Below are positions 24,774 to 35,850 of a stretch of 64,000 nucleotides of DNA, one piece after another; position 1 is the stretch's first letter; every line of letters begins with the position of its first letter. Position numbers and translations under genes: made by a program. Below the pieces are notes generated by a model that worked only from the letters and a program-made list of their open reading frames with translations, did no database searches and had not been told where the DNA came from. The DNA is from Planctomycetaceae bacterium (GTDB lineage: Bacteria; Planctomycetota; Planctomycetia; Planctomycetales; Planctomycetaceae). The stretch is taken from assembly GCA_019636285.1 (NCBI GenBank), contig JAHBXV010000010.1, positions 62,001 through 126,000 on the forward strand, in the 5' to 3' direction.

Positions 24774-25070
24774 AGCCGCTTCATTCCGGTGATACGGGAA
24801 CCACATCATCCAGATCGGCAAGCCGCCCACGGACGCGCGACCCACGGCAAGTGCTTGCCCAACCGCTCTTTCGGAAGAGAACTATACGACACGGCGCGGG
24901 GCGAATGCCAGTGCCAACCCGGCGAACGCGTGGCCCTGGGGGAGTTTGGTGCCGGATGTGACGCGTTGAAGGCTGGGAGGGGGAGACACGGGGACGCGGA
25001 GATGGGGCGAAAATTCGGACGAGGCCGGGAAGGGAGCGCTCCCCGTTGGGTCGCGGATAAAGGGACGCCG

Positions 25071-25532
25071 TTATGGTTCCAACGGCCGGACGTCGCTCGC
25101 GCTTTCGGCTTCGAGGGGGTCGCGGGCCATCGTCGACAGTTCCTCTTCCTGCTCGGGAGGGGCGAACAGATCTTCTGGCTCACCCGAGACGGCGATTTCC
25201 TCGGTCACTGCCGCATTTTCTTCTTCCGCTTCGTCGCCCGGCTGATCGGGGCCCATTTCGACGCGGTATTTCTCGCTGGCAAACGACAATTCGTCACCCG
25301 GCAACAGCGCTCCGCGAATCACTCGCTGGCCGTTGACCTTCGTGCCGTTCGTGCTCCCCAGATCGCGCAGAAACAACAGGCCATCGGTCCGGACGAGGAC
25401 GCAATGCAGCTTGGAAACACTGGTTTTTTCAAGGATGATGTCGCACAGGTCTGTTTGCCGCCCGACCAGCGTGATGTCCCGCCGAATCAGGATCGGGTTC
25501 CCCCCTTTCAGAGGGACCAGTTGTGCCCGCAT
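25071..25532 (-). CDS. FHA domain protein
   Basis: The 153-residue cytoplasmic protein is a single forkhead-associated domain (residues 5-95) that binds phosphothreonine peptides: GRQTDLCDIIL, SVSKLHCVLVRTDG and LRDLGSTNGTKVNG show the conserved Gly-Arg, Ser-x-x-His and Ser-Thr-Asn-Gly contacts. The remainder is an acidic tail (GDEAEEENAAV). No kinase lies near it, so the phosphorylated partner is unknown. Confidence 0.9.
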   Translation of the reverse strand: MRAQLVPLKGGNPILIRRDITLVGRQTDLCDIILEKTSVSKLHCVLVRTDGLLFLRDLGSTNGTKVNGQRVIRGALLPGDELSFASEKYRVEMGPDQPGDEAEEENAAVTEEIAVSGEPEDLFAPPEQEEELSTMARDPLEAESASDVRPLEP

Positions 25533-25883
25533 CGTGTTGACGTTCCGGAGGAAAGGAAAGGGGCAGCGACCGGCAGAGCGACCCTCGCCGCCCGCTCAAG
25601 AACCCGAATGATTCCGGCGAGTAATGTCCGGAATCGCCTCGAATTTCAACTGTTGTGCAGAATGATTCGTCGATCATACGTCGTCCCCGCCCCGGCCTGT
25701 CAACCCGTCCCCTGGTGAAAATGATGCCCAGGAAGTGTCAGAAGTCCGGAAATTCCGGGCCTAATCGTCGGACAGCGGGAGTCGCCCGCCCTCAACCACC
25801 ACGACCGAGCCGGTCCACCATGACAATTCCGGGTTTGCCTGTCGGATACCCCAGGCAGCGAAAAAGAGAGCCGTTGTCCGAGT
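25533..25883. other. Gene-free stretch between FHA and esterase genes
   Basis: I see no supported ORF. A short palindrome CCGGAA-A-TTCCGG lies at 25746-25758. The stretch should hold the FHA promoter and the end of the esterase operon, but no clear terminator is visible. Confidence 0.5.
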
Positions 25884-26837
25884 TCAGGTTCCCAGCGCCT
25901 TACGCAAGACGGTGATCGCCTGCTCGATCGCGGCCGACGCCGCCAGCGTGTCGCGGACCGGGTTGAGCATCATGAAGTCGTGAATGATGGCGTTGTAACG
26001 CACGCTCAGCGTCTGCACTCCCGACTCGACGAGTCGCCGTGCGTAGGCTTCGCCTTCATCACGCAGGACGTCATTCTCGTCGACAATCACCAGGGCCGGC
26101 GGCAGCCCGGCGAGTTCCTCGAGCGAGGCGCGGAGCGGCGAGACGGTAATGTCGTTCCGCTTGTCCTTGTCGGGCAGATAGGCATCCCAGAACCACGCCA
26201 TGGCCTTCTCCGACAGAAACGGTCCGTCGGCGAACTCGCGATAGCTGGCCGTGTTCTGACGGGCGTCCGTCACCGGGTAGTACAGCGATTGTTGCACGAA
26301 CGTCACATCGCCCCGCTGTTTCGCCAGAATGGTGAGTACGGTCGCCATGTTCCCGCCGACGGAATCACCCGCGACGGCCAGGCGTTTGGCATCGAGCCCC
26401 TTGGCGGCTCCATCCGTCACGATCCATCGGGCCGTCGCGTAGGCCTGTTCGATCGCCACCGGGTAACGGGCTTCGGGAGAACGATCGTATTCCACGAAGA
26501 CGACCGCCGCGTTCACCCCGACGGCGAGCTCGCGAACGAGCCGGTCATGCGTTCCCGCATTGCCCAGGATCCAGCCGCCGCCGTGGACATACAGGATGAC
26601 CGGCAACATTTCGGGCGGATTGACGGGTTTGACGATCCTCACCCGGACATCGCCCACTTCGGCCGCGACGGTGATCCATTCCTCGGCGACTTCGGGTTTC
26701 TCGATCGGTGCGGCCTGGATGTCGTCCAGCACCTTTCTCGCCCCCTCGGGACCGAGCTGATAGAGAAAGGGGGGCTTTGAGGTCTGGTCCGCAACCTTCT
26801 GGGCGGCTGGTTCCAGCACGATCGATTCCGTCGTCAT
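25884..26837 (-). CDS. Alpha/beta hydrolase (hormone-sensitive lipase-type esterase)
   Basis: From the ATG at 26837, which follows GGAAGGGA, the protein has 317 residues. ILYVHGGGWILGN gives the oxyanion HGGGW, VAGDSVGGNMA the nucleophile Ser, VDENDVLRDEGEAYA the Asp, and NAIIHDFMML the His. It likely hydrolyses small esters or lactones. It is the last gene (26 bases after the NmrA gene) of the operon led by the decarboxylase gene and probably read by the ECF41 promoter at 28251-28277. Confidence 0.9.
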   Translation of the reverse strand: MTTESIVLEPAAQKVADQTSKPPFLYQLGPEGARKVLDDIQAAPIEKPEVAEEWITVAAEVGDVRVRIVKPVNPPEMLPVILYVHGGGWILGNAGTHDRLVRELAVGVNAAVVFVEYDRSPEARYPVAIEQAYATARWIVTDGAAKGLDAKRLAVAGDSVGGNMATVLTILAKQRGDVTFVQQSLYYPVTDARQNTASYREFADGPFLSEKAMAWFWDAYLPDKDKRNDITVSPLRASLEELAGLPPALVIVDENDVLRDEGEAYARRLVESGVQTLSVRYNAIIHDFMMLNPVRDTLAASAAIEQAITVLRKALGT

Positions 26838-26863
26838 CTTGCATCCCTTCCCGGATCGGGCAA

Positions 26864-27610
26864 CTACGTGTGTTGCAACTGCCATTCAGACAGCGTGGTG
26901 CGTGCCAACTTCGGGTTGGCACCCGGATTCAATCCGCGTTCGTCGAGCGCCGTTCCAAAGTATAGCGCGGCGGGGTCGGCAGTCACCTGCCGCGAATCGC
27001 CACGGCTCTCAAGCGTCATCTGGATAAATTCCGCCATCGAACGGGATTCCGGACCGGCCACTTCCAGGATTCCGTTCACAGGAGCCCCCACGGCGACTTC
27101 TGCCAGGTTCGCGGCGACGTCGTCTGCGGCCAGCGGCTGCATGGGGGCGGTCGGCAAGCGGATCGAACCGTCGACCGCGCTCCCGTCGGCGATGGCGCTT
27201 AAGAATTCGAAGAATTGCGTCGCACGCAAGATGGTGTATGGGACAGGGCCGTTTTCGAGCAGGTTTTCCTGCGCGACTTTGGCCCGCATGTAACCGCTGT
27301 CCGGAAAGCGATCGGCACCGACCACACTGAGTGCCACATGATGCCGCACCCCGGCCTCGGCTTCCGCCGCCAGTAGATGACGAGTCGACGCCGTGAAGAA
27401 TTTCATCACCGCTTCATCCGCGAACGAGGGCGAGTTCGAGACATCGACGACAACATCCGCCCCCTCTAAAGCAGCGGCCAGCCCTTCCCCAGTGACGGCG
27501 TTTACTCCTGTCGAGGGTGAAGCAGACAGCGCATCATGCCCTTTACGGTGCAGGAGCGGTATCAGTTTTTTCCCGATAAGGCCGCTGCCGCCAATAACGA
27601 CGATTTTCAT
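26864..27610 (-). CDS. NmrA-like NAD(P)-binding oxidoreductase/epimerase
   Basis: The 248-residue protein starts with a Rossmann nucleotide-binding motif (KIVVIGGSGLIGKKLI) and has the SDR/NmrA plan (VVDVSNSPSFADEA, LSVVGADRFPDSGYMRAK with Tyr and Lys, ILRATQFFEF, PLAADDVAANLAEVA). Enzymes of this group are the oxidoreductase/epimerase partner of ECF41 sigma factors, together with carboxymuconolactone decarboxylases. The substrate is unknown. It lies 54 bases after the decarboxylase gene and 26 bases before the esterase gene. Confidence 0.9.
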   Translation of the reverse strand: MKIVVIGGSGLIGKKLIPLLHRKGHDALSASPSTGVNAVTGEGLAAALEGADVVVDVSNSPSFADEAVMKFFTASTRHLLAAEAEAGVRHHVALSVVGADRFPDSGYMRAKVAQENLLENGPVPYTILRATQFFEFLSAIADGSAVDGSIRLPTAPMQPLAADDVAANLAEVAVGAPVNGILEVAGPESRSMAEFIQMTLESRGDSRQVTADPAALYFGTALDERGLNPGANPKLARTTLSEWQLQHT

Positions 27611-27664
27611 GGTGGTCTCCGTTTGTCAGTATGTTTGAAGATACGGAAAGAATCGGATTTCCAG

Positions 27665-28141
27665 TCACGCCTGAGCGGCCGCGACGGATGTTGTCGCTGG
27701 ATCAACTTCCGGCACGGTTCTCGTACCGATGCTGACGCGGTTCCAGGCATTGATGGCCGCGATCGCCCAGATGAGATCGACCAGTTCCAGGTCGCCGAAG
27801 ACGAGACCCACGCGCTCGTGGATTTCTTCCGGAATCGGACGATCCGCAACGCGGGTCAGGGCCTCCGCCAGCAGCAGCGCCGCGCGTTCCCGTTCGGTGT
27901 ACCACGGGGCTTCGCGCCAGGCGGCGACGCCGTTGAGCCGCTGTTCACTCTCGCCACCCCGCCGGGCATCCTTCCAATGCAGGTCAAGACAGAACGCGCA
28001 GCCGTTGATTTGCGAAACGCGCAGTTTGACCAGTTCCAGCAACGGTTTTTCGAGGCCGCCTTGGGAGAGAGCTTTCTCCACGCCGAGCATGGCCCGGTAG
28101 GCGTCGGACGAGGTTTTGTCGAGCATGGTCTGCGGTTCCAT
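27665..28141 (-). CDS. Carboxymuconolactone decarboxylase family (AhpD-like) protein
   Basis: The 158-residue protein has the AhpD/CMD core with a redox CxxC followed by His (INGCAFCLDLHWKDAR) and the later LVDLIWAIAAINAWNRVSI segment. Such proteins act as thiol peroxidase partners or decarboxylases. AAGGAG precedes the ATG. It is the first gene of the three-gene operon, and the ECF41-type promoter lies about 110 bases upstream, as is usual for the COE genes controlled by ECF41 sigma factors. Confidence 0.92.
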   Translation of the reverse strand: MEPQTMLDKTSSDAYRAMLGVEKALSQGGLEKPLLELVKLRVSQINGCAFCLDLHWKDARRGGESEQRLNGVAAWREAPWYTERERAALLLAEALTRVADRPIPEEIHERVGLVFGDLELVDLIWAIAAINAWNRVSIGTRTVPEVDPATTSVAAAQA

Positions 28142-28250
28142 GGTCAGGCTCCTTGGGTTTCAGGTTTCCGGGCAAAGACACGCATCGCATCCACTCGACA
28201 CTTCGGCTGTCGAGCGGCAAAGACGTTGATGCGGACGACTCATCATCAAG

Positions 28251-28277
28251 GACGAGCAAGACCGCGCGTTTGTGACA
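28251..28277 (-). promoter_or_regulatory. ECF41-type promoter of the decarboxylase operon
   Basis: On the minus strand, TGTCACA (28277-28271) is followed after exactly 16 bases by CGTC (28254-28251), which is the published ECF41 consensus. It points at the decarboxylase gene, which starts at 28141. Confidence 0.85.
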
Positions 28278-28406
28278 GTCGCGATCCAAGAAATCGTGCC
28301 CACGCACTTGTGAGCGCGGCTCCAGTTCCGGGCAGCATCTCTGACAATCGCAACACGAAGCGAACGGCGACGCTCTTATCAGCCGGTTCGCGGCATCTCT
28401 ATGACC

Positions 28407-29255
28407 TCAGTCGATCCTGGCTGAGGACCAGCGTGTGAGTTTGTCGGGATTCGCGGTGATGTAGACGGCGCGGATCCCCTCTTCGATACGAAACGACACG
28501 ACATAGCGAACGGCACCGTCGCAGGCGACGACTACCCCTGGTTCGCCATTCACCGTTGCTTTTTGAAACTCGTAGCCCCGCAATTTCTTGGCGAAGACGC
28601 CCGCGAGGAATCGAGCCGCGCGACTGCGACCGTCGACAATGACACGGGCCGCTGTCGCCTTTCCACCGCCATCGGAGTGTACTTCCACGTCCTCGGTAAC
28701 GAGTTGCTCGACGAGCGTCACATCGCCGGCCCGGCACGCGGCCATGAATCGCTCGGCGAAGGCTTCCGCCACGAGGCGCTCGGGATGAAATCGCTTGTGA
28801 TCCTGCTCCAACCGGGTGCGCGCACGGCTGACAAGCTGTCGAATGTAGACTTCCGACTTTCCCAGAATCTCGGCAATCGTCGCATACTCGTAGTCAAACA
28901 CCGTTCGCAGCAGAAAGGCCGCCCGCTCTGAGGGAGACAGGCGTTCCAGCATGAGCAGAAAGGCCTGAGTGAGCGACTCGGAGAGCACGGTGTTGGCTGC
29001 CTGGGCTGGGGTATCGACGGGTTCGGGAACCCACGGACCGATGTAGTTCCGGCGACGTCGATCCGCCCGCAGCAGGTCGATGCACCGCCGGGTGGTCGTC
29101 GTCACTAGAAAGCCTTCGGGCGAAGTCACCTCGGACGCGGTTTGCAGCCGCAGAAATGCGTCCTGCACTGCATCCTCGGCATCAGCCACGCTCCCCAGCA
29201 TGCGATAAGCGACCGACATCAGCCTGGGACGCATTTCCGTCACGTCGGCATTCAT
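28407..29255 (-). CDS. ECF41-family RNA polymerase sigma factor with fused SnoaL-like domain
   Basis: The 282-residue protein has sigma2 (MSVAYRMLGSVADAEDAVQD) and sigma4 (LSPSERAAFLLRTVF, SEVYIRQLVSRARTR) regions and a C-terminal SnoaL-like domain with DGGGKATAA and the ending TANPDKLTRW. The DGGG and NPDKL motifs define group ECF41, in which the fused domain, not an anti-sigma factor, controls activity. No anti-sigma gene is nearby, as expected. It follows the cupin gene by 52 bases and is probably transcribed with it from the promoter at 29804-29830, giving autoregulation. Confidence 0.95.
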   Translation of the reverse strand: MNADVTEMRPRLMSVAYRMLGSVADAEDAVQDAFLRLQTASEVTSPEGFLVTTTTRRCIDLLRADRRRRNYIGPWVPEPVDTPAQAANTVLSESLTQAFLLMLERLSPSERAAFLLRTVFDYEYATIAEILGKSEVYIRQLVSRARTRLEQDHKRFHPERLVAEAFAERFMAACRAGDVTLVEQLVTEDVEVHSDGGGKATAARVIVDGRSRAARFLAGVFAKKLRGYEFQKATVNGEPGVVVACDGAVRYVVSFRIEEGIRAVYITANPDKLTRWSSARID

Positions 29256-29307
29256 GACTCTTCCCCTGTGGCGCTGTCAGCGCCGGGAGTCGACGGCCTC
29301 GCCTCCA

Positions 29308-29733
29308 TCAGTCCTTGGCCGGCTCCGGGACAGCGATCTCTTTGACATCTCGAGGATGCAGGACAAACGCAATCAGCCGTGTCTGGCCCTCTTTCGAAGG
29401 ATTCTTTGACACCCGATGCAGACAGCCCGTGGGCTCGTAGAAAACCTCGCCTGCCTTCAAGACCTTCGAGGGCTGATCGTCAATTCCCAGTTCGTATTCT
29501 CCTTCGGCCACATACACCAGCCCTGGTCCGGGATGGCGGTGGGATAACCCGGCTTCGCCCGGAGCGATGGTTACCTCGACGGCCGTCATCATCGCTTCTT
29601 TGCCGTCCAATGTCTCGCGCATTTCGCGAGTTGCCAGCACTCGCACGCGTTCCCCATCGTCGTGGTTGTTCGCGGCCATTCCCACGGCTCCCAGCGCGAC
29701 CCCTGTGGTCAGAACAAGCAGACTTCGAATCAT
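29308..29733 (-). CDS. Secreted cupin domain protein
   Basis: From the ATG at 29733 (GGGGAG seven bases before) the protein has 141 residues with an export signal (IRSLLVLTTGVALGAVGMAA) and one cupin domain: SHRHPGPGLVYVAEGEYELG (two His metal ligands) and EPTGCLHRVS (third His). Metal-dependent dioxygenase or binding activity is possible but unproved. It precedes the ECF41 sigma gene and has its own ECF41-type promoter, so it joins the regulon as a periplasmic member. Confidence 0.88.
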   Translation of the reverse strand: MIRSLLVLTTGVALGAVGMAANNHDDGERVRVLATREMRETLDGKEAMMTAVEVTIAPGEAGLSHRHPGPGLVYVAEGEYELGIDDQPSKVLKAGEVFYEPTGCLHRVSKNPSKEGQTRLIAFVLHPRDVKEIAVPEPAKD

Positions 29734-29803
29734 GATGGTCTCCCCCTGCATCGCTTTCGAGAGGCTTCCCTGACACCAATTTCAGAGTTCTCTCACCAGT
29801 AAG

Positions 29804-29830
29804 GACGCTCGGAGCCAGGGATTTGTGACG
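29804..29830 (-). promoter_or_regulatory. ECF41-type promoter of the cupin-sigma transcript
   Basis: On the minus strand, CGTCACA (29830-29824; one mismatch to TGTCACA) is followed after exactly 16 bases by CGTC (29807-29804), 70 bases before the cupin start. Confidence 0.75.
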
Positions 29831-29968
29831 GAGGGCCGATATTTTTTTCGCGGCCGGCCGAGCAATTCGGCCTGTCGTTTCCGATGTCCTTCGATCAAAC
29901 TGGTTTCCGGTCAGTCGACCGTTCATCTGTCGACCCGTGCTGATGGTCTTTCGGGGGGGGGCACCCAC

Positions 29969-30649
29969 ATGAAAGCAGCGTCTCTATCGCTCGTGATCCT
30001 GGGGATGTGGACCGCCGTCTCCTCTGCGGAGGAAAAGGTTCTCTTTTCAGACGACTTTGCGGGCGAACTTTCGCCGAAGTGGCAGCGAGTCGGGCTGACG
30101 GACGAAGACGTGCGCCTTCGCGACGGGGCGTTGGAGATCAGGCTGCGGCCCGTCCAAAAGGGACAGGCTCGGCCGATGCTGCGGGTTGACCTGCCGTTTT
30201 CGTCAGCAGGGACGGTGATCGCCTCCGTAGAAGTGACTGCGTCTCCCGACAAGGGGCTGTTGCGCGGTGCCGAAGCGGGTCTCAGTCTGACTTCCGCGGG
30301 ACGACCGGAGTTCACCGTTCGTAAGACAAACATCGATGGCTTCCAGGTGTTCGCCCCCGGCGAGGTTCGATTTCTGGGACAGCCAGGTCAGGAGGGGGAT
30401 CCCGGCCAGTACAGCGTGACCTACTGGCCGGCGCGCGCCACGGATGGCCCGCTGCGCATCATTGTCCGGGGTCACTACGCTTATTTTCAGACGGGCCCGA
30501 CGCAGAGCGGTGAATACCGCACGCTGTTCCACTCTGCGATTCAAGAGGGAAACGAAGGACTCGGATTCTGTCTGTTCGCGACGGGTGGCGATTCCGAGGA
30601 GGAGCGTTGGGTTCGTTTCGATAACTTTCGCGTGACCGGTCCCACCTGA
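29969..30649 (+). CDS. Secreted protein of unknown function (LamG/DUF1349-like)
   Basis: From the ATG at 29969 the 226-residue product has a signal peptide (ASLSLVILGMWTAVSSA) and a beta-rich body typical of concanavalin-like or DUF1349 domains in planctomycetes (KVLFSDDFAGELSPKWQRVG, LGFCLFATGG, RWVRFDNFRV). These domains usually bind or shape carbohydrate but no catalytic residues can be named. It is divergent from the cupin gene. A long in-frame 5' extension to 29825 is not supported. Confidence 0.75.
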   Translation: MKAASLSLVILGMWTAVSSAEEKVLFSDDFAGELSPKWQRVGLTDEDVRLRDGALEIRLRPVQKGQARPMLRVDLPFSSAGTVIASVEVTASPDKGLLRGAEAGLSLTSAGRPEFTVRKTNIDGFQVFAPGEVRFLGQPGQEGDPGQYSVTYWPARATDGPLRIIVRGHYAYFQTGPTQSGEYRTLFHSAIQEGNEGLGFCLFATGGDSEEERWVRFDNFRVTGPT

Positions 30650-30831: not shown

Positions 30832-32157
30832 GTGACCCTCTCCCCGACTTTACCCCGTGAACAACGATCCGGCGGACTGGTGCTGGCCGCGGTGGCCGCG
30901 TTCTGCACCTATTTCTGCATGTACGCCTTCCGCAAGCCGTTCAGCGCGGGGACGTTCGATGGACTGGAGTTGTATGGCCTGGGGTTGAAGTCGGTACTGG
31001 TGATCGCGCAGGGCGGCGGCTACATGGTGTCGAAGTTCATCGGCATCAAGGTCATCTCCGAAATGCGCCCCGAGCGGCGGGCGATCTGGCTGGTCGGCAT
31101 GATTGTGTTCGCGGAACTGGCGCTCGTCGGATTCGCGGTGGCTCCCTTGTGGGCCAAGCCCCTTCTGCTGTTCCTCAACGGGCTGCCATTGGGGATGGTC
31201 TTCGGCCTGGTGCTCGGCTATCTCGAAGGGCGTCGCCAGACCGAAGCATTGTCGGCCGTGCTGTGTTCGAGCTTTATCATCTCATCGGGGGTCGTGAAAT
31301 CGGCCGGGCAATGGACGATCCAGTCGCTGGGCTTCAGCGAATACCAGATGCCAATGATCGTGGGGCTGATGTTCCTGCCGCCGTTTCTGGTTTCGGTCTG
31401 GTTGCTGCAGCACACCCCTCCCCCGACGGAAGACGACATTGCCGTTCGCCAGGAGCGGAAGGCGATGAACGGCAACGAGCGTCGCGATTTTTTGGCCGCT
31501 TACTGGCCAGGCCTGTCGCTGCTGGTGCTCGTCTATGTGCTGCTCACGGTCATCCGCACGATCCGCGATGACTTCGGCGTCGAAATCTGGCGGGATCTGG
31601 GAATCAGCAAACCGGCGATCTTCGCGCAATCGGAAACGACGGTCGCCCTCTTCGTAGCCGTTCTGAACGGGCTGGTGATCTGGATTCATCGCCACGTTAC
31701 GGCGCTGCGTGTCACGATCGGGTTGATGGGGATTTCGTTCGCGTTGGTGGCCATCGTGGGCCTCGTGCAGCCTTTGGGAACCTTGTCGCCGTTCGCGTTC
31801 ATGATCGCCTGCGGCGTGGGGCTGTACATTCCCTATGTCGCCTTTCACACGACGGTCTTCGAACGCCTGATCGCCGCATCCGGGCGACCGTGCAACCTGG
31901 GATTTCTGATGTATCTGGCCGATGCGATTGGCTATCTGGGATATAGCCTGGTCCTCGTCTTTCGCGAATCGAACCGGACGGTCGTGGAAGTGCTCCCCTT
32001 CTTCCGCGTGCTGCTCGTTGTCCTCGCGGGGCTTTCGTTCGTGGCAATGCTGCTCGCTTTGGCCTACTTTCAACGCGTGCTGAAACCGGCCGATGTTCCA
32101 GCGACCGACGAACCGGTCGGCGAAGGGACGCCCGCCGCGATGCCGGTCGCCAATTGA
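30832..32157 (+). CDS. DUF5690 / MFS-like membrane transporter, phosphonate cluster
   Basis: The 441-residue protein has about twelve membrane segments (for example GLVLAAVAAFCTYFCMYAF; LLLFLNGLPLGMVFGLVLGY; LSFVAMLLALAYF) and belongs to the DUF5690 family of major-facilitator-type proteins. The start is a GTG. It is the first gene of a five-gene plus-strand series (47 bases before the alcohol dehydrogenase gene) that degrades phosphonates, so import of the organophosphonate is a reasonable inference, not a demonstrated function. Confidence 0.85.
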   Translation: MTLSPTLPREQRSGGLVLAAVAAFCTYFCMYAFRKPFSAGTFDGLELYGLGLKSVLVIAQGGGYMVSKFIGIKVISEMRPERRAIWLVGMIVFAELALVGFAVAPLWAKPLLLFLNGLPLGMVFGLVLGYLEGRRQTEALSAVLCSSFIISSGVVKSAGQWTIQSLGFSEYQMPMIVGLMFLPPFLVSVWLLQHTPPPTEDDIAVRQERKAMNGNERRDFLAAYWPGLSLLVLVYVLLTVIRTIRDDFGVEIWRDLGISKPAIFAQSETTVALFVAVLNGLVIWIHRHVTALRVTIGLMGISFALVAIVGLVQPLGTLSPFAFMIACGVGLYIPYVAFHTTVFERLIAASGRPCNLGFLMYLADAIGYLGYSLVLVFRESNRTVVEVLPFFRVLLVVLAGLSFVAMLLALAYFQRVLKPADVPATDEPVGEGTPAAMPVAN

Positions 32158-32203
32158 GCGGACCGCATTTGACACGAAACAAGTTTGAAGACCCCGCGCG
32201 AGC

Positions 32204-33322
32204 ATGACCGAATTGCACACGCCCTCTGAGACACTTCCTGACCACTCGCTGGCCGCGGTTTTCTCACGCACTGGCGAACCCCTCGCGCTCCAGTCGTTCC
32301 CCCTGCCGGAACTTGGTCCGGGCGAGGCGTTGGTTCGCGTGGAGCTTTGCACCGTCTGCGGCAGCGACCTGCACACCGTCACCGGCAAACGGCAGGAGAA
32401 AGTCCCCACGATTCTGGGACACGAAATCTGTGGCTGGGTCGTCGCCAATGCCGCGATCCCACTGACCGATCTTGATGGCGTCGCGCTGCGTGAGGGTGAC
32501 CGGGTCACGTGGTCGACCTCGGTCTCCTGCGGCACCTGCGATCGCTGCCAGTCGGGCCTACCGCAAAAGTGCCGCACGCTCGCCAAGTTTGGCCATGAAG
32601 CGACGACGGGCGGCTGGCCCCTCAGTGGCGGACTGACCCAGTACGTTCATCTCAAAGCGGGGTCACGCGTCGCCCGCCTGCCGGAAGGGCTTCCCGCGGA
32701 AGTGGCCTGTCCAGCCAATTGTGCGACAGCCACCGTCGCCGCGGCCTTTCGCGTTGCCGGTTCGCTCAGTGACAAGCGCGTGCTGATCTTCGGGGCGGGA
32801 ATGCTGGGCCTGACCGCGGCAGCCATGGCGAAGTCGCTGGGAGCACGGACAGTCGTCGTCTGCGATCGCGATGCACGACGGCTGTCACTCGCCAGCCAGT
32901 TTGGAGCGGATGCCGTTGTCACCTGGACCGACAATGAAGCGGCCACGCTCGATGAACTGGGATCCAGATCGGGCGGAACGGGCTATGACGTGCTCGTGGA
33001 ACTGTCCGGATCGCCGTCCGCCGTCGAAGCCGCCTGTGCCTTGACCGAAATCGGCGCGAAGGTCGTCCTGGTTGGCACGGTGATGAAGTCGCGGCCCATT
33101 CAGATCGACCCGGAAGCCCTCGTCCGACGCTGGACCTCGATTCACGGCGTCCATAACTATACGCCGGAGGATCTGCGGACGGCTGTCGCCTTTCTGGCCG
33201 AACAGCACACGAAGTTTCCCTTCGCCGAACTGGTCGCAAAACGCTTCCCGCTCGACGAGATCAACGCAGCTATCGACTTCGCGGTGACGCACGGCCCGGT
33301 TCGCATCGCGATTGCTCCCTGA
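32204..33322 (+). CDS. Phosphonate-associated zinc alcohol dehydrogenase
   Basis: The 372-residue medium-chain dehydrogenase has catalytic zinc ligands in TVCGSDLH and ILGHEICG, the structural zinc motif CGTCDRCQSGLPQKC, and a Rossmann fold (VLIFGAGMLGLTAAAMAKSL). It matches the subgroup known from phosphonate catabolism operons (TIGR03366 in my memory of the family). Likely substrate is an alcohol or aldehyde formed during C-P compound breakdown; the exact one is unknown. It lies 22 bases before the HD oxygenase gene. Confidence 0.9.
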   Translation: MTELHTPSETLPDHSLAAVFSRTGEPLALQSFPLPELGPGEALVRVELCTVCGSDLHTVTGKRQEKVPTILGHEICGWVVANAAIPLTDLDGVALREGDRVTWSTSVSCGTCDRCQSGLPQKCRTLAKFGHEATTGGWPLSGGLTQYVHLKAGSRVARLPEGLPAEVACPANCATATVAAAFRVAGSLSDKRVLIFGAGMLGLTAAAMAKSLGARTVVVCDRDARRLSLASQFGADAVVTWTDNEAATLDELGSRSGGTGYDVLVELSGSPSAVEAACALTEIGAKVVLVGTVMKSRPIQIDPEALVRRWTSIHGVHNYTPEDLRTAVAFLAEQHTKFPFAELVAKRFPLDEINAAIDFAVTHGPVRIAIAP

Positions 33323-33344
33323 TCGTGCTCGATAAGGTTTCCAG

Positions 33345-33902
33345 ATGACCACTGTCGACGACATTCTCAACCTGCTGGCTCGCGGCGGCGATTCGCAATA
33401 TGGCGGCGAAGCGGTGACTCAACGAGAGCACGCGCTGCAAGCGGCCTGCCTCGCCGAGCGGGAAGGCGCGCCGGCGACGCTCATCACGGCCGCGCTCCTG
33501 CACGACGTGGGCCATCTGCTGCACGACCTGCCCGACGATGCCCCCGAGCGTGGGATCGACGATCATCACGAGAACTCGGCCTATCATCTCCTGCGACGAT
33601 TGTTTCCCGACGAGGTCACCGAGCCAATCCGCCTGCATGTGGCGGCCAAGCGCTATCTGTGTGCGGCGAACCCGGGCTATCGAGATCTTCTCAGCGAGCC
33701 GTCGATCGTCAGCCTGAACCTGCAAGGTGGGCCGATGTCGTCCGCAGAGGTCGAGTCGTTCCGATTGAATCCTCATTTCGAAGCAGCGGTGCGCGTGCGC
33801 GGGTGGGACGATACCGCGAAAGATCCGGAGATGGCGACTCCGACCCTGGAACACTTCGCTGCCTATGTTCGCCAGGCGGCTCTTGCGGAGTGTCGCGAAT
33901 GA
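33345..33902 (+). CDS. PhnZ-like HD-domain mixed-valent diiron oxygenase
   Basis: The 185-residue protein matches the HD proteins of phosphonate operons (TIGR03276 group, including PhnZ and TmpB). Residues align with the PhnZ site at a near constant offset: Tyr19 and Glu22 (the mobile Tyr and its Glu), His29, His53-Asp54, His75 and His98, with Lys102 possibly contacting phosphonate. PhnZ cleaves 1-hydroxy-2-aminoethylphosphonate to glycine and phosphate; substrate here may differ. Its stop overlaps the FAD gene start (ATGA). The C-terminal RGWDDTAKDP contains a candidate final Asp ligand. Confidence 0.9.
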   Translation: MTTVDDILNLLARGGDSQYGGEAVTQREHALQAACLAEREGAPATLITAALLHDVGHLLHDLPDDAPERGIDDHHENSAYHLLRRLFPDEVTEPIRLHVAAKRYLCAANPGYRDLLSEPSIVSLNLQGGPMSSAEVESFRLNPHFEAAVRVRGWDDTAKDPEMATPTLEHFAAYVRQAALAECRE

Positions 33903-35035
33903 CGCACGCGTTCAACGTCGCCGTGATTGGAGGAGGAATTGTCGGGCTGGCCCATGCGTGGCAGGCGGCTCGCCGCGGCCTGCGCGTGGCCCTCTTTGAG
34001 AGAACTGCGAAGGCCGAAGGGGCCTCGGTGCGCAACTTCGGCATGGTCTGGCCGGTTGGGCAACCGGCCGGTGAACTGCATGACATCGCCCTGCGGTCGC
34101 GCGAACTCTGGCTGGAACTGGGGCGCGCCGGCGTGCTGACCGTGCAGGAATGCGGTTCCATTCACCTCGCGCACCATGCGGATGAGTTGGCCGTCCTCGA
34201 AGAATTCCGCGACCGACGCCCCCACGACGTTCGGTTGATGACGCCGACCGAAGTCGCGGCAGCCGCTCCACTCGCCAATCCACACGGTCTGCTTGGCGGG
34301 CTGTGGAGTTCGTCCGAGTTGCGAGTTGATCCGCGCGTCGCCAGTGCCCGCATTGCCGGTTGGCTGGGTGAACAGCATCGCGTCGCCTGTCACTTCACCA
34401 CGACAATCATCGCCGTTGACGACAACCGCGTTATCGCCACCGATGGCCGCACCTGGCAGGCCGAGCAGATCATCATTTGCGGCGGCAGCGATTTTCAGAC
34501 GCTCTTTCCAAGTGTCTTTACGGATTCCGGGCTGGTTCCCTGCAAACTGCAGATGTTGAAGTCGGTGGCTCAGCCAGAGTCGTTTCGGCAGCAGCCGCAC
34601 CTGGCCAGCGGACTTACATTGCGACATTACGCGTCGTTCCGGGAGTGTCCATTGCTTGAACGCGTCCAAGCGCGGATCGCCAATCAGAGCCCCGAACTTG
34701 ATCGCTACGGAATTCACGTGATGGCGTCGCCCTTCCCCAATGGGGAAGTCATCCTGGGGGACTCGCACGAGTATGGGGATGACATCACTCCGTTCGACAA
34801 GCCGGAAATCGATGACCTGATGCTGCGCGAACTGCGAAAGGTCTTTCGGCTGGCTGACTGGACCTGCCGCGAGCGCTGGCACGGGATCTATGCGAAACAC
34901 CCTACGTTAGCCGTGTTTGAGGCCGAGTGTCGGCCGGGGGTGCGGGTCTTCACCGGGACCGGTGGAGCGGGAATGACGATGTCGTTCGGATTGGCGGAAC
35001 AGGCCTGGAATCGATGGTTGGGAGTGACAGCGTGA
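33899..35035 (+). CDS. FAD-dependent oxidoreductase, phosphonate catabolism type
   Basis: From the ATG at 33899 the protein has 378 residues. A dinucleotide-binding motif (VAVIGGGIVGLAHAWQAAR) begins near residue 8 and the DAO-family end motif GTGGAGMTMSFGLAEQ closes it. It matches the phosphonate-linked DAO subgroup (TIGR03364). Related enzymes oxidise aminoethylphosphonate or its N-methyl form to phosphonoacetaldehyde, which would feed PhnX encoded next; this link is inferred. The gene overlaps both neighbours (ATGA upstream, GTGA downstream). Confidence 0.9.
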   Translation: MTHAFNVAVIGGGIVGLAHAWQAARRGLRVALFERTAKAEGASVRNFGMVWPVGQPAGELHDIALRSRELWLELGRAGVLTVQECGSIHLAHHADELAVLEEFRDRRPHDVRLMTPTEVAAAAPLANPHGLLGGLWSSSELRVDPRVASARIAGWLGEQHRVACHFTTTIIAVDDNRVIATDGRTWQAEQIIICGGSDFQTLFPSVFTDSGLVPCKLQMLKSVAQPESFRQQPHLASGLTLRHYASFRECPLLERVQARIANQSPELDRYGIHVMASPFPNGEVILGDSHEYGDDITPFDKPEIDDLMLRELRKVFRLADWTCRERWHGIYAKHPTLAVFEAECRPGVRVFTGTGGAGMTMSFGLAEQAWNRWLGVTA

Positions 35036-35850
35036 CGAATGCGATGCAGTTTCTGAAAGCGGTGGTGTTTGACTGGGCGGGAACGACCGTGGACCACGGC
35101 AGCCGAGCCCCGGCGATCGTCTTTCAGGAAATCTTCCGCCGACGCGGCATCGAGATCACGGTCGCGCAGGCGCGCGGCCCCATGGGGATGGCAAAACGCG
35201 AACACATCGCCGCCGTCGCGGCAGTACCGGAAATTGCCGCCGCCTGGAAAGCCAAGTATGGCAGCGCCTGCGGCGACACGGACATCGACCGGATGTATGC
35301 CGACTTCCTGCCGCTGCAGAAGGCGACGCTCAGCGACCATTGCGACCTGATTCCCGGAGTCGCCGCTGCCGTGAACGAGTTGCGGGCGATGGGTCTGAAA
35401 ATCGGTTCTTCGACTGGATACACCCGCGAACTGATGGAAGTCGTCACGGCAGCCGCTCGCGAACAAGGCTATGACCCCGAATGCGTCCTCTGCGCGGAAG
35501 ACGCGGTGCGCGGTCGCCCGGCTCCGTACCTGTTGTATGAAGCGGCCCGACGGCTCGATGTCTATCCGCTCTGGGCGGTTGCGATTGTCGACGATACGCC
35601 CGTGGGGATCGAAGCGGGCCGCAACGCGGGCTGCTGGACGATTGGCGTCACGCGGACCGGAAACTGCCTGGGACTCTCGCTCGACGAAGCCAGCGTTCTC
35701 GACGTGGATGAGAAGAATCATCTATGTGCCGTTGCGGGCGAGCAGTTGAAGAAAGCCGGGGCCCACGTCCTGGTGGAATCGGTGGCGGAAATTGTCCCCG
35801 TCATTCGCGACCTCGATGCGCGAGCCGCACGCGGGGAACGACCGTTTTAA
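35032..35850 (+). CDS. phnX: Phosphonoacetaldehyde hydrolase PhnX
   Basis: PhnX splits phosphonoacetaldehyde into acetaldehyde and phosphate. The protein from the GTG at 35032 has 272 residues; the GTGA overlaps the FAD gene stop and GGGAG lies seven bases upstream. FDWAGTTVDHG carries the nucleophile Asp14 and PMGMAKREHI carries Lys55, the Schiff-base lysine; both are offset by two from the Bacillus cereus enzyme. VDDTPVGIEAG holds the acidic metal ligands of the HAD fold. It converges with the next gene, their stops sharing TTAA at 35847-35850. Confidence 0.94.
   Translation: MTNAMQFLKAVVFDWAGTTVDHGSRAPAIVFQEIFRRRGIEITVAQARGPMGMAKREHIAAVAAVPEIAAAWKAKYGSACGDTDIDRMYADFLPLQKATLSDHCDLIPGVAAAVNELRAMGLKIGSSTGYTRELMEVVTAAAREQGYDPECVLCAEDAVRGRPAPYLLYEAARRLDVYPLWAVAIVDDTPVGIEAGRNAGCWTIGVTRTGNCLGLSLDEASVLDVDEKNHLCAVAGEQLKKAGAHVLVESVAEIVPVIRDLDARAARGERPF

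Follow-up and report, generated by a model that had tools for sequence, protein, structure and literature searches.

A planctomycete ECF41 sigma factor locus with two predicted promoters and an extended −10 element

Organization of the Locus

The locus under study lies on the minus strand of a 64 kb stretch of planctomycete DNA (hereafter, the window), in which the genes follow one another in the order cupin, sigma factor, carboxymuconolactone decarboxylase (CMD), oxidoreductase, and hydrolase. The cupin protein is encoded at positions 29308..29751 (Pfam Cupin_2, 55.7 bits), with an alternative ATG at 29733. The next gene, 28407..29255, encodes a sigma factor assigned by profile matches to the ECF41/SigJ type, with a fused SnoaL-like C-terminal domain. 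The CMD protein, which is AhpD-like and contains the CxxC motif GCAFC, is encoded at 27665..28141 (Pfam CMD, 71.5 bits; ahpD_dom, 64.5 bits), and is followed by an NAD(P)-binding oxidoreductase/epimerase (26864..27610; Pfam NAD_binding_10, 40.3 bits) and an alpha/beta hydrolase similar to hormone-sensitive lipases (25884..26885; Pfam Abhydrolase_3, 238 bits; second possible start at 26837). According to the Pfam matches, COE genes adjoin the sigma gene, the CMD and the NAD(P)-binding oxidoreductase being located directly downstream of it. The hydrolase is probably the last gene of the CMD operon; it has no match in the sequence retrieved for the 31 related loci described below and is therefore probably a local addition. 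A scan of positions 25000–30000, which covers the gap between the sigma and CMD genes, gave six terminator-like hits versus 4.3 expected.

A cluster likely responsible for phosphonate (2-aminoethylphosphonate-type) degradation adjoins the sigma locus on the plus strand (window positions 30832–35850). It encodes an alcohol dehydrogenase (TIGR03366), an HD-domain oxygenase (TIGR03276), an FAD oxidoreductase (TIGR03364), and a phosphonoacetaldehyde hydrolase (TIGR01422), all scoring above the model cut-offs. The first ORF of this cluster resembles a transporter by eye and has no model match at 1e-10.

The Sigma Factor

Regions 2 and 4 of the sigma factor match the PF04542 (55.6 bits) and PF08281 (49.7 bits) profiles, and its C-terminal extension matches SnoaL_2 with 27.6 bits, just above the cut-off of 27. 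The protein passes the cut-off of the NCBIfam SigJ/PRK09636 model (289.5 bits, cut-off 271), while the score against the SigX4 model, 301 bits, is below the cut-off of 323.25. It is the sole full-length match among the 14 SigX4-type matches in the 6.37 Mb genome; the runner-up, with 48 bits, is restricted to profile positions 5–157. SigJ of Mycobacterium tuberculosis (5xe7) can be aligned with the window sigma factor over residues 7–274 of 282 (E = 1.6e-40), which is a nearly full-length similarity including the SnoaL_2 domain.

The preliminary description of this DNA attributed the DGGG and NPDKL motifs of ECF41 to the sigma factor. Both SDGGGK and NPDKL are indeed there, and they are largely conserved among 11 planctomycete sequences; the searched part of the text of Wecke 2012 (PMC3426412) does not print these motif names. 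The further traits ascribed to ECF41 factors, namely, COE target genes, a promoter of this type, and the lack of an anti-sigma factor, all agree with the description in Wecke 2012, and there is no obvious anti-sigma gene at this locus: Pfam revealed no anti-sigma domain in the neighbours tested (the cupin, CMD, NAD(P)-binding protein, hydrolase, an FHA protein, and one ORF without a match).

Two Predicted Promoters in the Window

The promoter core TGTCACA-N16-CGTC occurs in exact form before the CMD operon (28251..28277, minus strand), and its variant CGTCACA-N16-CGTC, found by a scan with one mismatch, precedes the cupin–sigma pair (29804..29830, minus strand), so that both sites, as well as their common 16-base spacing, are as originally reported. 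Both are in sense orientation: the CMD site falls within the 265 bases that separate the sigma and CMD genes, and the cupin site precedes the two possible cupin start codons by 53 or 71 bases. Comparison with related loci indicated that the −10 element continues directly into CTTG at the CMD promoter (28247..28250, minus strand) and into CTTA at the cupin promoter (29800..29803, minus strand), where the clade consensus is CTTG. The cupin promoter is therefore off the consensus at two places, the first base of the −35 element and the fourth base of the extension. Downstream of the −10 element, both sites also share a T at position 6 and a G at positions 7 and 10; the G located 7 bases after CGTC is at 28244 and 29797, respectively. 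According to the available parts of the published reports, mapped ECF41 transcripts start with G in two species, and the start mapped for the S. meliloti ECF41 factor RpoE9 is 9 nt after the motif (PMC3616915, PMC6180224).

The exact core is found once in the window; when the whole window was dinucleotide-shuffled 100 times, five of the shuffled versions contained at least one copy. When one mismatch is allowed, the window contains two sites; the shuffled windows average 1.23, and 39 of the 100 have two or more. The number of sites alone thus does not make the pair significant, as would be expected if the two matches had arisen by chance; the case for the pair is made by position and conservation, not by count. 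A motif model built from 34 sites, with the window left out, gave the CMD site a score of 33.0 (rank 1 of the 255,820 windows scored) and the cupin site 22.9 (rank 2), the third score being 9.8. The CTT extension can be considered an independent test, since both window sites were found without it and yet carry it. Given also the placement of the sites and their conservation in relatives (see below), as well as the genome scan with the extended motif, chance matches were rejected as an explanation with near certainty.

The preliminary description proposed a search of the genome for TGTCACA-N16-CGTC. The CMD site of the window was recovered as an exact match, but the core alone turned out to be unspecific, with three exact sites in the genome and 94 sites with at most one mismatch versus 50 in the backwards control; because of this ratio, it is a poor genome-wide predictor and was rejected as such. 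The other two exact core sites are inside long ORFs of 791 codons (L003) and 546 codons (L002). By contrast, the longer motif GTCACA-N16/17-CGTCCT occurs only twice in the 6.37 Mb genome, both times at the window sites (backwards control, 1). With one mismatch, TGTCACA-N16-CGTCCTT has a third site in this genome, located inside an ORF (L109). The 791-codon ORF around the L003 match (G000:C85) contains a CxxCH-type motif and is cytochrome-like by eye; heme-motif coding sequences may explain part of the genome-wide excess of TGTCAC.

Related Planctomycete Loci

Similarity searches with the sigma factor revealed a match in 24 of 392 genomes of the phylum (at 1e-40), in 10 of 101 genomes of the family, and in 27 of 397 genomes of the class (at 1e-75, 30 places). 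The 29 places of the class search outside the window's own genome, together with L079 from the family search, make up the 30 related loci. A 31st locus, L173, was found by its motif; it was counted separately for the motif and together with the others for gene content. The loci share ancestry, and their sites are not independent. Over the 31 loci, a cupin gene is present in 24, an oxidoreductase gene in 20, and a CMD gene in 13. The commonest layout is cupin–sigma–oxidoreductase, and sigma–CMD occurs in several loci. L154 has the gene order of the window and both promoters, and in L077 and L163 the CMD gene is divergent from the sigma gene, with a site facing each way. For comparison with named genomes, 80 loci were collected and 79 used, as L174 and L161 (G510, Planctomycetales bacterium 71-10) represent one and the same stretch of a contig.

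Sites at the related loci were selected by the core only (at most one mismatch, spacer of 16 or 17, from −1800 to +1300 relative to the sigma gene). The core was found near the sigma gene in 29 of the 30 loci; the sole miss is L167, where the contig end cuts the upstream DNA and leaves about 174 bases before the gene. CTT follows the −10 CGTC at 31 of the 35 sites, and CTTG at 29 (34 and 31 of 38, respectively, with the window and L173 added). Of the four sites without CTT, those of L076 and L160 are minus-strand matches directed against the operon, and those of L152 and L161 read CTC. Outside the related loci, CTT is present at one of 14 sites at 14 other Planctomycetota ECF41 loci and at one of 68 sites at the loci from named genomes (79 loci, 54 with a site). 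Seven of eight further Planctomycetota loci, which belong to the tree set only, have a site, and one of these (L066) has CTT; it is also present at L294, whose genome was identified through the extended motif.

The three columns C, T, and T after the −10 element contain 1.5–2.2 bits of information versus 0.2–0.6 bits in spacer columns 5 to 8, which makes shared ancestry alone a poor explanation of the extension. Conservation also extends to the first two bases of the spacer (A and A, 1.4–1.5 bits), and an A-rich stretch can be noted 12–15 bases before the −35 element in the related sites. On a quick tree, the CTT label requires at least nine changes versus a shuffled mean of 29.8 (L160 was scored by its antisense match despite its CTTG site); the label is clustered, and it is not a single clean gain. 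A CTTG extension of an ECF41 promoter was not found in the literature searched, and a subgroup logo in the 2021 ECF re-classification may contain it. No such extension is described in the available text of Wecke 2012 (PMC3426412), the logo figure apart. In the part of PMC6180224 available, the single CGTCCTTG is in the promoter of RpoE10, an ECF42 factor of S. meliloti; judging by this promoter ending, such a downstream extension may not be confined to ECF41.

The conservation data also bear on the question of whether both window sites depend on the sigma factor. It might be supposed that only the exact CMD promoter does, and that the cupin–sigma pair is transcribed by another holoenzyme, the near-match before it being weak or a relic without a role in autoregulation. 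This agrees with the mismatch in the first −35 base of the cupin site and with its CTTA instead of CTTG. However, CGTCACA is found at six of the 35 related sites (L078, L156, L159, L160, L161, and L164), five of which keep CTT (L161 reads CTCG) and five of which have a spacer of 17. In addition, the cupin site is second in the window scores, far above the third, and a simple scan showed no sigma-70-type site near it, although this is weak evidence in planctomycetes. Dependence of the CMD promoter only seems unlikely, and control of both promoters by the sigma factor is preferred.

The Cupin

Of the 31 related loci, 22 have a cupin homolog upstream of the sigma gene in the same orientation; the distance is at most 140 bases in 16 of these and 448–961 bases in the remaining six. 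This proximity could mean that the cupin protein regulates the sigma factor, as a ChrR-like anti-sigma factor or a sensor, instead of being a regulated product, and a weak match to Pfam Cupin_7 (ChrR cupin-like; 24.5 bits, below the cut-off of 27) points in the same direction. In ChrR-type anti-sigma factors, the defining domain is a zinc-binding anti-sigma domain located before the cupin domain. In the protein of the window, the cupin domain alone scores above the Pfam cut-off, and there is no second domain. Hydropathy analysis indicated a hydrophobic N-terminus in all eight cupin sequences tested; for this reason, the cupin is probably exported and acts, if so, outside the cytoplasm. Moreover, seven of the 31 loci have the sigma gene without a cupin gene in the stretch examined (L167 is cut short upstream), and there are promoter-bearing cupin units for which the retrieved sequence shows no sigma match (L279, L280, L281, and L287). 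An anti-sigma role was weighed and not favoured, and a regulatory role in general appears improbable. The cupin adds a recurrent, probably exported partner to the picture of ECF41 systems.

Proposed Regulation and Comparison with Known ECF41 Systems

We propose, with a probability of roughly 85%, that a single ECF41 sigma factor with a SnoaL-like regulatory domain drives both promoters, (T/C)GTCACA-N16-CGTC-CTT(G/A), and so would control its own cupin–sigma transcript and the CMD–oxidoreductase–hydrolase operon. The sigma factor would recognise both promoter copies; transcription from the cupin promoter would yield the cupin–sigma transcript and result in positive autoregulation, while the second copy would serve the operon. 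When there is no signal, the C-terminal domain would hold the activity of the sigma factor at a low level. The signal, which is probably a small molecule or a redox-related compound bound by the SnoaL-like domain, would increase the activity, and both transcripts would rise together. That one sigma factor serves a redox operon and its own transcript was already suggested in the preliminary description; the comparison strongly supports this suggestion by the conservation in relatives, the extension at both sites, and the occurrence of the extended motif nowhere else in the genome.

The assumed role of the C-terminal domain follows from published ECF41 work. In the available text of Wecke 2012 (PMC3426412), partial truncation of the C-terminus raised the activity approximately 20-fold and 120-fold, whereas full removal abolished it, and a review, also available in part, states that the extension inhibits by contact with the linker and that a conformational change activates the factor. 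The window locus is probably a positively autoregulated ECF41 system of the published kind. Like Ecf41Bli of Bacillus licheniformis and Ecf41Rsp of Rhodobacter sphaeroides (PMC3426412), it combines sigma regions 2 and 4 with a large C-terminal extension, a CMD target, and the TGTCACA-N16-CGTC promoter, and has no obvious anti-sigma gene. Unlike in these systems, a cupin gene precedes the sigma gene, two promoters are present in one locus, CTT(G) prolongs the −10 element, and WVPEP replaces WLPEP in the linker. RpoE9 of Sinorhizobium meliloti, in the parts of PMC3616915 and PMC6180224 available, also acts on a CMD gene from the same motif; however, there the CMD gene precedes the sigma gene, a single operon is all that the factor targets, and ATG comes directly after CGTC (PMC6180224), in place of the CTT of the window.

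Some of these differences have precedents. The available text of Wecke 2012 (PMC3426412) reports motifs before both the ECF and COE genes in approximately 20% of the ECF–COE loci with genes in the same direction and records four cupin–ECF41 pairs; its table lists ten phyla, and Planctomycetes are absent from it. ECF41 factors are widespread, yet, according to the same text, ECF41 mutants had no phenotype that could be reproduced, and only one target operon was found per species tested. Wider roles have already been claimed for one ECF41 factor, which a reference title ties to motility and lateral flagella in Azospirillum.

Predicted Targets Outside the Locus

The exact sequence TGTCACA-N16-CGTCCTTG has eight sites in the 101 genomes of the family (control, 1), six of them at loci of the system and two (L118 and L120) elsewhere. 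In the 397 genomes of the class, the exact extended motif with a spacer of 16 or 17 was found at 38 sites in 29 genomes, versus 11 in the backwards control. Thirty-one of the 38 are at or before homologs of the cupin, sigma, CMD, or oxidoreductase genes, including 22 at the loci described above. Nine of the other 16 sites precede homologs of the system: cupin and oxidoreductase genes in L279, L280, and L287; a cupin gene in L281; a second sigma gene with CMD in L282; a sigma tail with an oxidoreductase gene in L283; an oxidoreductase gene alone in L284 and L285; and, in L286, a 452-codon ORF, oxidoreductase-like by eye, followed by a sigma gene. The remaining seven (L288–L293 and L120) have no genes of the system, which is about the number expected by chance. 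Five genomes with the clade sigma factor (G505, G619, G601, G560, and G490) have a predicted target away from it, whereas Wecke 2012 (PMC3426412), in the text available, found a single target operon per species. The initial characterization of the regulon as self-contained holds for the window's own genome, but does not extend to these five relatives, in which targets are predicted elsewhere in the genome.

Three features seem to be new: the promoter extension specific to the clade, a probably exported cupin that is usually encoded by the first gene, and the detached targets predicted in five relatives. The sigma factors of the clade also differ from others. The linker of the window sigma factor, WVPEP, is one conservative change from WLPEP; the variable position of WxPEP is Val in 72% of 32 clade sequences and Leu in all 104 others. 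Other residues that distinguish the clade, as correlates only, include W276, C174, and E47-G48. Positions 47–48, which we take to lie in the loop reading the −10 element, are E-G in the clade and mostly R/K-A in other ECF41 factors. Tentatively, and with less than even odds, this could be a planctomycete ECF41 branch with its own promoter code, CGTC-CTTG, read by the changed sigma-2 loop and insulated from other ECF41 factors, which runs a small, partly dispersed regulon around an exported cupin. If so, the cupin would be the most constant effector of the unit. The promoter signature of the clade is longer and far more specific than the core, which would make the regulon readable directly from the genome sequence.

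Three genomes weaken a strict one-to-one link between the sigma factor and the promoter. The G373 genome (L173) has kept the promoter, cupin, CMD, and oxidoreductase, while the sigma gene downstream of the cupin is a remnant matching residues 1–58 only; the other ECF41 factor of this genome is 46% identical. G605 contains a cupin unit with the promoter, and its only ECF41 relative is 43% identical. In G478 (L285), an oxidoreductase gene has the full extended promoter, and there is no ECF41 match at 1e-20. Either another factor reads the extended promoter in these genomes, or the sites are relics. Together with the divergent loci and the detached targets, the sigma remnant with its promoter and targets kept offers natural experiments on this system.

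Additional small differences can be noted in the cupin units. A small ORF located between the cupin and oxidoreductase genes in L279 and L280 resembles GNAT acetyltransferases by eye, and in L281 and L287 the cupin gene is followed by an ORF that is DoxX-like by eye.
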